Assembly (NCBI GenBank): GCA_003220315.1
Contig: QHSA01000154.1
Span: forward strand, 1 to 39,417
Origin: Candidatus Rokuibacteriota bacterium
Lineage (GTDB): Bacteria; Methylomirabilota; Methylomirabilia; Rokubacteriales; CSP1-6
Reading direction: 5' to 3'
Length of the DNA: 39,417 bases
Positions 5,336 to 33,319 of this stretch are shown in pieces. The notes beneath the pieces were generated by a model. That model ran no database searches. It saw only the letters and a program-made list of their open reading frames with translations, and was not told the origin of the DNA. The position numbers and the translations under genes were made by a program. Positions within the stretch are counted from its first letter, which is position 1. Each line of letters begins with the position of its first letter.

Positions 5336-6084
5336 CAGCCGAGCGTCGCCCCTCCCTGCTGGCGTAGGACCTCCTCCATGATCATCGTGTTGAGGTCGTC
5401 GACGAGCCTGCCGCGCTCCACGCGCCCGTCGTTCCGAATCAGCTCGCGCACCCGCGACGGACGCGCCGACATCATGACGAGCGTCGTCCCGAGCGCGACC
5501 GCTTCCTCGATCGCGTGGGTCACGAAGAGGATCGTCCGTCCCGTCTCCTTCCAGATCCGCCGTACCTCGGCCTGCATGATCCGGCGGTTCTGGGCGTCGA
5601 GGGCGCCGAAGGGCTCGTCCATCAGGAGGACGTCCGGCTCGATCGCGAGCGCGCGCGCGATCGCGGCGCGCTGGCGCATGCCCCCCGACACGCGGCCCGG
5701 GTAGTACGCTTCGAAGCCGACGAGACCGACGAGCGCCAAGTAGCGGCGCGCCGCCGCGCGCCGCGCCGCGGAGGCGAGGCCGAGCGGCCTCAAGACGAGC
5801 GCGACGTTCGCCTCGAGCGTCATCCACGGGAGCAGCCGGTCTTCCTGGAAGACGACGCCGACTTTCCGGTCGTGAGCGTCCCCCGCGACGACCGGCGTGC
5901 CGTCCAGGAGCACCGCGCCGCGCGTCGCGGGCTCGAGGCCGCCGATGATCCTCAGCAGGGTCGTCTTGCCGCAGCCGTTCGGGCCGAGGACGCACACGAA
6001 CTCCCCGGCCTCGACGCGGAACGTGACGGTGTCGAGGACCGGGATCAGGTAGTCCTTGCCGACCCCGGTCACGTCCAGCTTCAT
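5335..6084 (-). CDS. ABC transporter ATP-binding protein (nitrate/sulfonate/taurine type, SsuB/TauB-like)
   Basis: GPNGCGKTTLLRIIGG Walker A, VSGGMRQRAAIARAL signature, LLMDEPFGALD Walker B. Confidence 0.95.
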   Translation of the reverse strand: MKLDVTGVGKDYLIPVLDTVTFRVEAGEFVCVLGPNGCGKTTLLRIIGGLEPATRGAVLLDGTPVVAGDAHDRKVGVVFQEDRLLPWMTLEANVALVLRPLGLASAARRAAARRYLALVGLVGFEAYYPGRVSGGMRQRAAIARALAIEPDVLLMDEPFGALDAQNRRIMQAEVRRIWKETGRTILFVTHAIEEAVALGTTLVMMSARPSRVRELIRNDGRVERGRLVDDLNTMIMEEVLRQQGGATLG

Positions 6085-28613: not shown

Positions 28614-29120
28614 TCACGGTGACGCGCCGGCCACGGAGGGTGTTCCGACGAGGCTGTCGAGGAGACGGGGCAGGCGTCTCACGACGGACTCGCCGTGGAG
28701 CTGCGCGGCCATCTCGCCTCGGCGGTCGACGACAACGGTGTAGGGTGTCCCCTTGAAGCCGAAGCGGTTCGCGAGCGTGAGCCGCGGGTCGAGCGCGACG
28801 GGGTAGGCGACCTTCTGCTCGAGAACGAAGCGCTGCGCGTCCACGGCGGTGTCCTGGACGTGGATCGCCAGGATCTCGACGCCGCGCGCGCGGTAGCGCG
28901 CCGCGACACGCGCCAGCGCCGCCGACTCTTTCACGCACGGCTTGCACCACGACGCCTGGAAGCGGAGGACCAGGACCTTCTTTCCGATCAGATCGCGCGA
29001 GTCGAGCACCCGCTGGCTGCCGAGGAGGCGCACCGTGAAGCCCGGTGCCGCGGGCGCGGCGGCGAGAGGCGCGACGACGCACAGCAGGAGCAGGAGGGCC
29101 GGCAGGACGCGCGCAACCAC
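28614..29120 (-). CDS. Secreted TlpA/thioredoxin-like protein (GTG start)
   Basis: Signal peptide VVARVLPALLLLLCVVAPLAAA; VLVLRFQASWCKPCVKESAALARVAARY; GTPYTVVVDRRG. Confidence 0.9.
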   Translation of the reverse strand: MVARVLPALLLLLCVVAPLAAAPAAPGFTVRLLGSQRVLDSRDLIGKKVLVLRFQASWCKPCVKESAALARVAARYRARGVEILAIHVQDTAVDAQRFVLEQKVAYPVALDPRLTLANRFGFKGTPYTVVVDRRGEMAAQLHGESVVRRLPRLLDSLVGTPSVAGASP

Positions 29121-29125
29121 GAGGG

Positions 29126-29132
29126 TATAATA
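29126..29132. promoter_or_regulatory. Shared bidirectional -10 (TATAATA): TATAAT on plus, TATTAT on minus
   Basis: Sits in an 18-bp gap (29121-29138) between divergent GTG codons at 29120 and 29139; implies leaderless mRNAs both ways. Confidence 0.5.
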
Positions 29133-29138
29133 GCCCGC

Positions 29139-32069
29139 GTGAACGACCTCGAGCACGAACTTCGCAAGGTCGTCGCCGGCGACGTGCGGTTCGATCCGGT
29201 CTCCCGCCTGCTGTACTCCACCGACGCGTCCATGTATCAGGTCGAGCCGATCGGCGTCGTGATGCCGCGCGACGCCGACGACGTCCAGGCGGCCGTGGAG
29301 GTGGCGCGGAGGCACGAGGTGGCGCTCCTCCCGCGTGGCGGCGGGACCTCGCTCACGGGCCAGACCGTCAACCGCGCGCTCGTCCTCGACTTCTCCCGCC
29401 ACATGAACCGCGTGCTCGAGGTCGACACCGAGGCGCAGTGGGCGAGGGTCGAGCCCGGGCTCGTCCAGGACGAGCTGAATCACCACGTGCGGCCGATGGG
29501 GTTGCTGTTCGGCCCGGACACGTCGACCTCGAATCGCGCGACGCTCGGCGGAATGCTCGGCAACAACTCGGGGGGCTCGCACTCGATCGCCTACGGGCTG
29601 ACGGTCGACCACGTCGTCGAGGTCACGGCGCTCCTGGCCGACGGGACGCGCGTCGTCTTCGGCGACGTCACGCCCGAGGAGCTCGCGCGGCGGGGCCGGC
29701 TGCCCGGCCTCGAGGGGCAGATCTACCGCGAGGTCGGGCGGATCCGCGACGCGTACGCCGACGAGATCCGCGCGCGCTACCCGCATCACTGGCGACGGGT
29801 GGCCGGCTACAACCTGAACGAGCTCGTGGGCGTCGGGGTCAAGCCGGGGTCCCTGGCGGGCGGCGGCGGAGTCGCCTCCGACCCGAGAGGATCCGCGCGC
29901 GGCCTCAGCATGGCGCGCCTGATCGTCGGCTCCGAGGGCACGCTCCTGACGCTCGTCGAGGCGAAGGTGCGCCTGGTGCGACGGCCCAGGACGACCGCGC
30001 TCGACGTCATCCACTATCGCGACCTCCAGGAGGCGCTCGAGTCCTCGCAGTCCATCCTCGAGACGGGCCCGTACGCGGTCGAGCTCACCGACAAGCTGAT
30101 CCTCGATCTCGCGCGTGACAACATCGAGCAGGCCCAGCGGATGGGCTTCGTCCAGGGCGATCCCGCCGCGATCCTCATCGTGGAGTACGCCGGGGACAGC
30201 GACGCGGAGGTCCGCGCCAAAGTCGCCGAGCTCGAGGCGCGGCGTGCGCGCGAGCGCTTCGGCTACGCCGCGACGCTCGCCTTCGATCCCGCCGAGCAGC
30301 AGTCGATCTGGAAGCTCCGCAAGGCGGGGCTCGGGCTCCTGCTCGGGATGAAGGGCGACAAGAAGCCCATCGCCTTCGTCGAGGACACGGCGGTCCACCC
30401 CAAGCACCTGGCGGAGTTCGTGCCGCGCTTCCGCGAGATCTTCGCCAAGCACGACGTCGTGGGCGCCTACTACGGCCACTGCTCGGTCGGGTGCCTGCAC
30501 ATCCGGCCGGTGATCGACCTCAAGACCCCGCGCGGGCTCGAGCAGGTGCGCGCGATCGCGGACGAGATCACGAGCCTCGTGCTCGAGTTCGGCGGGACGA
30601 TCTCGAGCGAGCACGGCGACGGCCGGGCCCGGAGCCCGTTCCTCGCGCGCATGTACGGGCCACGGCTGATGCGCGCGTTCCGTGAGCTCAAGCGCGCGTT
30701 CGACCCCGAGAACCGCCTGAACCCGGGCAACATCGTCGACGCGCCCGGGATCCTCGAGAACCTCCGCTACGGCGTCGGCGAGCGGGCCTGGGAGCCGACC
30801 ACCCTCCTCGACTTCTCCGGCCAGGGCGGCTTCGCCGCGGCGGTGGAGCTCTGCAACGGCGTCGGCGTCTGCCGCAAGAAGCTCGAGGGCACGATGTGCC
30901 CGTCGTACATGGCGACGAAGGACGAAGAGCACTCGACGCGCGGGCGCGCGAACGCGCTCCGGGCCGTGCTCTCCGGGCGGCTCCCGCCGTCGGAGTTCAC
31001 CGGGCACCGCCTCTACGAAGTCATGGACCTCTGCCTCGAGTGCAAGGGGTGCAAGGCCGAGTGCCCGGCGAACGTGGACATGGCGAAGCTCAAGTACGAG
31101 TTCCTGCACCACTACTACGCCGCGAACGGGCTCCCCCTGCGCAACCGCCTCTTCGGGCGGATCGAGCGGCTGCACCGACTGGGCGCGCACCTGCCGGCCC
31201 TCGTCAACTGGGCCTCGGCCCTCGCGCCGAGCCGCTGGCTGCTCGAGAAGCTCGTCGGCATCGACCGCCGCCGGCCGCTCCCGACGCTCGCCGCGAAACC
31301 GTTCACCGCCTGGTTCGCGCGCCACGCGCCGCCGGTCGCGAGCCCGCGCGGCGAGGTCGTGCTCTTCCACGACACGTTCGTGACCTACAACACGCCCGAG
31401 ATCGGTCGCGCCGCGGTGGAGCTGCTCGAGACCGCCGGGTACCGTGTGGTGCTCGTGGACAAGAAGTGCTGCGGCCGGCCGCTCATCTCGAAGGGCATGC
31501 TCACCGAGGCGCGCGCGCACGCGGCGTGGAACGTGGACCGGCTCGCCCCCCACGCGCGACGGGGCGTGCCGATCGTGGGGCTCGAGCCCTCGTGCCTCCT
31601 GACGTTGCGCGACGAGTCGGTGGATCTCCTCCGCACCGACGACGCACGGACCGTGGCGCGGCACGCCGTCCTGCTCGAAGAGTTCCTCACGCGCGAGCGC
31701 GGGCGCGGCCTCGAGCTCCGGTTCACCGGCGACGGCCGGACGGCGCTCCTGCACGGGCACTGCCACCAGAAAGCGCTCGTCGGCACGGCCCCGACGGTCG
31801 CGGCCCTCCGGTGGGCCGGCTTCCGGGTGGAAGAGGTCGATTCCGGGTGCTGCGGGATGGCGGGCGCGTTCGGCTTCGAGCGCGAGCACTACGACATCTC
31901 TGTCGCGCTCGGCAATCGCCGCCTGGTGCCCGCCGTGAAGGCGGCGCCCGCGGACACCGTGATCGTGGCGCCCGGCGTCTCGTGCCGCCAGCAGATCGCG
32001 CACCTCGCCGGGCGCCGCGCGTTCCACCCCGCCGAAGTCCTCCGGGCCGCGCTATCGCCCTCCTCCTAG
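29139..32069 (+). CDS. FAD-binding oxidase fused to Fe-S/CCG-domain oxidoreductase (GlcD/YdiJ-like)
   Basis: VVMPRDADDVQAAVEVARRHEVALLPRGGGTSLTGQTVN; CLECKGCKAECPANVDMAKLKYEFL; CCGRPLISKGM and CCGMAGAFGFE. Confidence 0.94.
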   Translation: MNDLEHELRKVVAGDVRFDPVSRLLYSTDASMYQVEPIGVVMPRDADDVQAAVEVARRHEVALLPRGGGTSLTGQTVNRALVLDFSRHMNRVLEVDTEAQWARVEPGLVQDELNHHVRPMGLLFGPDTSTSNRATLGGMLGNNSGGSHSIAYGLTVDHVVEVTALLADGTRVVFGDVTPEELARRGRLPGLEGQIYREVGRIRDAYADEIRARYPHHWRRVAGYNLNELVGVGVKPGSLAGGGGVASDPRGSARGLSMARLIVGSEGTLLTLVEAKVRLVRRPRTTALDVIHYRDLQEALESSQSILETGPYAVELTDKLILDLARDNIEQAQRMGFVQGDPAAILIVEYAGDSDAEVRAKVAELEARRARERFGYAATLAFDPAEQQSIWKLRKAGLGLLLGMKGDKKPIAFVEDTAVHPKHLAEFVPRFREIFAKHDVVGAYYGHCSVGCLHIRPVIDLKTPRGLEQVRAIADEITSLVLEFGGTISSEHGDGRARSPFLARMYGPRLMRAFRELKRAFDPENRLNPGNIVDAPGILENLRYGVGERAWEPTTLLDFSGQGGFAAAVELCNGVGVCRKKLEGTMCPSYMATKDEEHSTRGRANALRAVLSGRLPPSEFTGHRLYEVMDLCLECKGCKAECPANVDMAKLKYEFLHHYYAANGLPLRNRLFGRIERLHRLGAHLPALVNWASALAPSRWLLEKLVGIDRRRPLPTLAAKPFTAWFARHAPPVASPRGEVVLFHDTFVTYNTPEIGRAAVELLETAGYRVVLVDKKCCGRPLISKGMLTEARAHAAWNVDRLAPHARRGVPIVGLEPSCLLTLRDESVDLLRTDDARTVARHAVLLEEFLTRERGRGLELRFTGDGRTALLHGHCHQKALVGTAPTVAALRWAGFRVEEVDSGCCGMAGAFGFEREHYDISVALGNRRLVPAVKAAPADTVIVAPGVSCRQQIAHLAGRRAFHPAEVLRAALSPSS

Positions 32070-32824: not shown

Positions 32825-33319
32825 CTATACCGTCGCGCCGGAGAGGAGGGTGAAGATGCGCCGGATCAGCTGCTCGTGATCCTCGATGTTGTGGCGGAAG
32901 ATCCGAAGCTCCTTGAGCTCGGCGATGTCCACCGTGCGGATGGGCTCGCCGGTGCGGAGGGCCGCGAGGGAGAGGGCCTGGAAGCACGAGCGGCCCGTCT
33001 CCGGGCGCTCGGTGACGAGCACGAAGTAGAGCGTGGGCCAGTGGCGTCGGGCCATGAAGAACGCCGACCGCTCGCCCCGCTGATTCTCGACGGAGACGAA
33101 CTGCTCGATGGATGGCCGGTACTTCACCTCGACGAGGAACTCGCCGTCGGAGGCGCGCCCCGGCGCCGGCGACACGAGGAAGTCGGGCGAGAAGTCCTCA
33201 CGGCCGAAGCGGAGCGGCAGCGCCTCCTGGCGGTACGGGCGCACCTCGTAGCGCGCGCGGCGGAAAATGGACTCGACGAGGGCCTCGGCAATCCGGCTCT
33301 TCGCCTCGAGCAGATCCAC
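32825..33319 (-). CDS. PD-(D/E)XK nuclease-like protein (GTG start)
   Basis: RFGREDFSPDFLVSPAPGRASDGEFLVEVKYRPSIEQFVSVENQ: PD...(D/E)xK arrangement SPDFLV-x(n)-FLVEVKYR. Confidence 0.6.
   Translation of the reverse strand: MDLLEAKSRIAEALVESIFRRARYEVRPYRQEALPLRFGREDFSPDFLVSPAPGRASDGEFLVEVKYRPSIEQFVSVENQRGERSAFFMARRHWPTLYFVLVTERPETGRSCFQALSLAALRTGEPIRTVDIAELKELRIFRHNIEDHEQLIRRIFTLLSGATV

Follow-up and report, generated by a model that had tools for sequence, protein, structure and literature searches.

Symmetrical -10 elements that initiate transcription in both directions have been described by Warman, Grainger and co-workers, with the opposite-strand starts at a shared -10 lying mostly 18 bp apart (PMC12825309, PMC10268837). 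Within these bidirectional promoters the -11A and -7T of the two strands are reciprocally paired, the -10 is largely indispensable and the -35 may be missing (PMC12825309, PMC10268837); a T at position -18 is frequent, though not obligatory, in those of Escherichia coli and Salmonella (PMC10268837). Leaderless genes carry a TANNNT motif about 12 bp ahead of the start codon (Zheng 2011, PMC3160421), a -10-motif that has been tested in Deinococcus (PMC12340547). The locus analysed here, an 18-bp gap between two divergent genes in a rokubacterial window of 39,417 nucleotides (the whole stretch of DNA under study), very probably combines the two, such that one symmetrical signal would launch both genes in opposite directions with neither message carrying an untranslated leader.

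A probable symmetrical -10 between two divergent genes

The features of the locus are as follows.

28614-29120, minus strand: TlpA/ResA-like secreted thiol-disulfide oxidoreductase, 168 aa (Pfam PF00578/PF08534), predicted leaderless GTG
29120, minus strand: predicted transcription start of the TlpA-like gene, on the first G of its GTG (-7T at 29127 plus 7 nt)
29121-29138, no strand: intergenic spacer, 18 bp, holding one symmetrical -10 plus two discriminators and essentially nothing more
29126-29131, plus strand: predicted -10 of the FAD/Fe-S oxidoreductase gene, TATAAT, the sole TATAAT in the window, conserved in orthologs
29127-29132, minus strand: predicted -10 of the TlpA-like gene, TATTAT on the minus strand, kept as TANNNT in TlpA orthologs
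29138-29139, plus strand: predicted transcription start of the FAD/Fe-S gene (-7T at 29131 plus 7 nt)
29139-32069, plus strand: FAD-binding/4Fe-4S/CCG-domain oxidoreductase, 976 aa (Pfam PF01565, PF02913, PF13183/PF13534, PF02754), predicted leaderless GTG

By its sequence the FAD/Fe-S protein is placed in the YdiJ-like D-2-hydroxyglutarate dehydrogenase superfamily; its best NCBIfam match is YdiJ, with a score under that family's cut-off. Both reading frames stay open upstream, through the opposite gene, and the starts are therefore fixed by homology rather than by ORF structure. Within the order, alignments of FAD orthologs begin at residue 1, on the codon corresponding to GTG 29139, and the sequence upstream of their starts is dissimilar apart from the hexamer. 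On the minus strand, the signal-peptide-like N-terminal stretch of the TlpA-like protein begins right at GTG 29120. The sequence-only reading had held that neither gene has another plausible start nearby. Those of its named contrary findings that could be checked did not turn up, and the orthologs begin at the same codon rather than carrying conserved N-terminal extensions. Elsewhere in the window, a 164-aa ORF on the minus strand (32825-33319) has no Pfam match.

Read directly, positions 29118-29141 are CAC GAGGG TATAATA GCCCGC GTG, so that the element can be taken as TATAAT on the plus strand and TATTAT on the minus strand, two hexamers that overlap by 5 bp, leaving 7 nt to GTG 29139 and 6 nt to GTG 29120, respectively. 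The distance from the first T of TANNNT to the start codon is 13 bp for the FAD gene and 12 bp for the TlpA-like gene. Within this window of roughly 71% GC, TATAATA occurs once against 0.01 expected from shuffles, and TATAAT once against 0.14 expected. The gap, the heptamer and both distances had all been reported previously and proved exact on re-reading. Applying sigma-70 geometry, with -7T as the last hexamer base, places the minus-strand start at 29120 and the plus-strand start at 29138, one base 5' of the GTG and 18 bp away, in agreement with the earlier proposal that the starts fall on or next to the start codons. With this placement the -11A and -7T of opposite strands are reciprocally paired (A:T at 29127 and T:A at 29131). 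The T at -18 is absent from the window element, where -18 of the plus start is the C at 29120, because both genes start with GTG and that codon fixes what lies opposite the minus start. Neither GTG is preceded by a Shine-Dalgarno sequence in its adjoining 6-7 nt (agcccgcGTG and accctcGTG).

Conservation of the -10 at shared and split loci

We found TANNNT 5-9 nt before the start codon in 43 of 49 FAD orthologs, leaving six in which it is missing, and in 41 of 43 TlpA orthologs, as compared with a background of 0.20-0.26 per spacing elsewhere. Of the upstream features in both sets, the -10 shows the strongest conservation; its usual distance to the start is 6-8 nt among FAD orthologs and 6-7 nt among TlpA orthologs. 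When searching for a -35 hexamer at 15-19 bp in 35 FAD and 30 TlpA upstream regions, we observed no signal (mean best matches of 2.66 and 2.67 versus 2.52 and 2.55 in shuffles), and no other conserved element was detected in the upstream regions of these orthologs. Both ortholog sets often have G at -13 and -15 ahead of the -10 (0.67-0.80), possibly a lineage-specific extended -10.

The pattern TATAAT N4-9 RTG is found 23 times in the 4.26-Mb genome of the window versus twice for the reversed pattern. Spacing profiles were sampled from the same genome (about 0.64 Mb) and from a congener (0.80 Mb). Ahead of long ORFs, TANNNT peaks in each profile at 6-7 nt from the start codon, with counts per spacing of 28 and 30 versus about 12 in the window's genome, and of 34 and 35 versus about 17 in the congener. 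On sequence grounds, this peak is the leaderless signature as defined in PMC3160421.

In 11 genomes spread over several genera, 18-19 bp separate the TlpA and FAD starts; conservation of the 18-bp spacer, proposed earlier as a check, thus extends well past the window. At loci without the shared element, 30 of 32 TlpA genes and 32 of 38 FAD genes keep a -10 of their own. L026, from the same genus as the window, has the genes 1 kb apart with separate elements, TATTATagctttcGTG and TATAATggctcgtGTG, and its TlpA gene retains TATTAT 7 nt before the GTG. Shorter separations are seen in genus g8, with the genes about 54 bp apart and served by TACTAT and TATAAT, and in a third group, where about 46 bp separate the genes and the elements are TATACT and TATAAT. 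In genera g2 and g16 another gene intervenes, and the TlpA start and this new neighbour share a symmetrical TATAGTA, the FAD gene being preceded by a separate TATAAT; the intervening gene (L033, L035, L036) encodes a secreted-looking protein of about 100 aa (..ATICSTDWGWCPV..SPYLNPHT..). Four further genomes carry TAGTATAAT, which has a different overlap with TATACT for the minus strand and stands 6 nt from the TlpA GTG in L049 and L143 and 10 nt from ATG in L050 and L145. Conservation of either gene's -10 thus does not depend on its partner.

Closer comparison of the element itself points to its seventh base, position 29132 in the window, which supplies the -12T of the putative TlpA promoter and is needed only in the TlpA direction. 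This base is A at 11 of 11 shared loci, but at one of the 30 loci where the element is not shared and the FAD -10 is intact (Fisher p 3.8e-9, with no kinship correction). The shared state changes five times on a phylogeny of the FAD proteins, and the independent contrasts that agree with the base number three on well-supported branches (five on all) in nearly all pairings; the sign test has a median p of 0.25, these independent gains and losses being too few for significance. Because relatives include loci where the pair is naturally split, with one half at each gene, and loci where the symmetrical base has been lost, two single-base changes would suffice to test directly whether the -10 symmetry is selected or incidental.

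Collectively, the ortholog -10s, the split loci and the association of A at 29132 with sharing support the original proposal of a symmetrical bidirectional promoter for two leaderless genes, and we assign a probability of roughly 0.8 to the reading of the 18-bp gap as a -10-only promoter used by the housekeeping sigma factor in both directions, with both mRNAs leaderless. It is unlikely that TATAATA drives the FAD gene alone, with TATTAT an accident and the TlpA-like gene merely abutting and expressed weakly or by other means. The FAD-side hexamer is indeed a perfect consensus and is conserved at the FAD gene even without a neighbouring TlpA gene, as this account would have it, yet separated TlpA orthologs have their own TANNNT at 6-7 nt (30 of 32 within 5-9 nt), TATTAT alone is kept in L026, and, with a single exception, A at the seventh base is confined to loci where a TlpA gene abuts.

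The open upstream frames, together with the possibility of further upstream promoters, would also accommodate two real -10s with leadered or mixed messages, in which the main starts lie inside the opposite gene and TATAATA acts as a minor or internal promoter. Such an arrangement appears very unlikely given the lack of a -35 signal or other conserved upstream element in the ortholog upstream regions, the absence of a Shine-Dalgarno sequence from the short stretch (6-7 nt) ahead of each GTG, and the tight -10 spacing in most orthologs of both genes. That TATAATA is no promoter at all but an operator or other AT-rich protein site is scarcely credible; its near-palindromic form is often seen in operators, but the same hexamer class stands at the same distance ahead of many unrelated genes, and at split loci each half accompanies the gene it belongs to.

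Recurrence at other gene pairs and a proposed mechanism

We observed the strict pattern CAY-N5-TATNATA-N6-RTG at 36 sites in 30 of the 60 genomes of the order, as opposed to none for the reversed controls. Symmetrical-pattern sites also occur at other gaps (10 at 19 bp, 4 at 17 bp and 4 at 24 bp), and a spacing control with 6 and 7 nt on the two sides (gap 20) yielded a single site in the 60 genomes. Among the other 35 genomes of the class the strict pattern gave 7 sites versus 6 in controls and hence no enrichment, so that the enrichment belongs to the order. The degenerate TANNNTA also gave many matches for the reversed pattern, an unmatched control, and only conserved families were used from it. 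A divergent-pair rate computed from raw ORFs was abandoned, as spurious antisense ORFs dominate the count.

Several gene pairs share the arrangement. A MoeA/RDD pair with an 18-bp gap is present in 23 genomes, a MetH/CaiB-type CoA transferase pair in 18 genomes by pattern (11 read through, the window's genome included), an FGGY kinase/72-aa protein pair in about 10 genomes, and an AIRS-domain protein/formiminotransferase pair of the same architecture in two genera. No pathway common to these pairs is obvious, and the recurrence therefore looks like an architecture rather than a pathway switch. MoeA loci without an abutting RDD gene keep the seventh-base A in three of five cases, that of the window's genome included, so the base is not diagnostic of sharing there and its use as a general mark of sharing is weakened.

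Individual loci add further detail. The moeA of the window's genome (L281/L356; G000:C156, around 5949-5963) retains a symmetrical TATAATA, with the RDD gene not found beside it, and the congeners G002 and G003 still have the MoeA/RDD pair. The MetH/CaiB pair gives the window's genome a second predicted zero-leader divergent pair (CATAGAGGTATAGTAACGCACATG; L345 1527-1550, G000:C248:24426-24449). The 72-aa protein (MAESWEVLTLRGLASTDERAQ..; L321, L346-L354) has no Pfam match and is conserved across genera in divergent orientation to the FGGY kinase. In genus g19 a further pair, with reading frames of 68 aa and more than 500 aa, has a symmetrical spacer of 19 bp (L311, L312 at 1501).

These features suggest a mechanism in which RNA polymerase with, presumably, the housekeeping sigma factor would bind TATAATA in either orientation, the TATAAT orientation leading to the FAD/Fe-S start at 29138/29139 and the TATTAT orientation to the TlpA start at 29120. 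Starting on the GTG, or one base before it, would leave both mRNAs leaderless, and their translation would begin by leaderless initiation, in which no Shine-Dalgarno site takes part. We infer both the transcription and the leaderlessness at 29121-29138 from comparative sequence evidence. Two polymerases at one element would exclude each other, a competition at TATAATA that we propose by analogy with work in E. coli, and read-through or distant leadered promoters may serve as additional transcript sources. The arrangement may have arisen repeatedly because the 18 bp dictated by the symmetry is also the distance left by two leaderless genes. More tentatively, and at somewhat less than even odds, Rokubacteria may use a recurrent class of zero-leader divergon, comprising an 18-bp region with one symmetrical -10, two leaderless mRNAs and initiation that is mutually exclusive because the element fits only one polymerase, which would be gained and lost with its neighbours and may couple and de-noise unrelated housekeeping pairs.

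Comparison with described systems

Bidirectional 18-bp -10 elements and leaderless TANNNT genes are each already known, and it is their recurring, naturally split fusion that appears to be new. We found no description of a bidirectional -10 fused with leaderless genes in the searchable literature, which leaves most subscription journals outside; the words 'divergent' and 'bidirectional' are absent from PMC3160421, as they are, along with 'Rokubacteria', from PMC12340547. The spacer resembles the leaderless genes of Zheng 2011 and Deinococcus in its TANNNT 6-7 nt before ATG or GTG, its high-GC genome and its lack of both a Shine-Dalgarno sequence and a -35, the last of which also sets it apart from a classical -35/-10 sigma-70 promoter, as no -35 hexamer was found at 15-19 bp in the ortholog upstream regions. 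Whereas those studies (PMC3160421, PMC12340547) treat one gene per motif, here one motif would serve two genes.

With the promoters of Warman, Grainger and co-workers the window spacer shares a predicted 18-bp start spacing with -11A/-7T pairing, which is their commonest configuration. It differs from those of E. coli and Salmonella in the absent T at -18, and from the described promoters in general in that both products are coding and predicted to be leaderless, the intergenic region is the element alone, and the rokubacterial arrangement persists at particular gene pairs from genus to genus. Collectively, these comparisons indicate that two known phenomena are probably joined in a divergent layout close to the tightest that they permit, seen at several unrelated gene pairs of an uncultured order of soil bacteria, the Rokubacteria.
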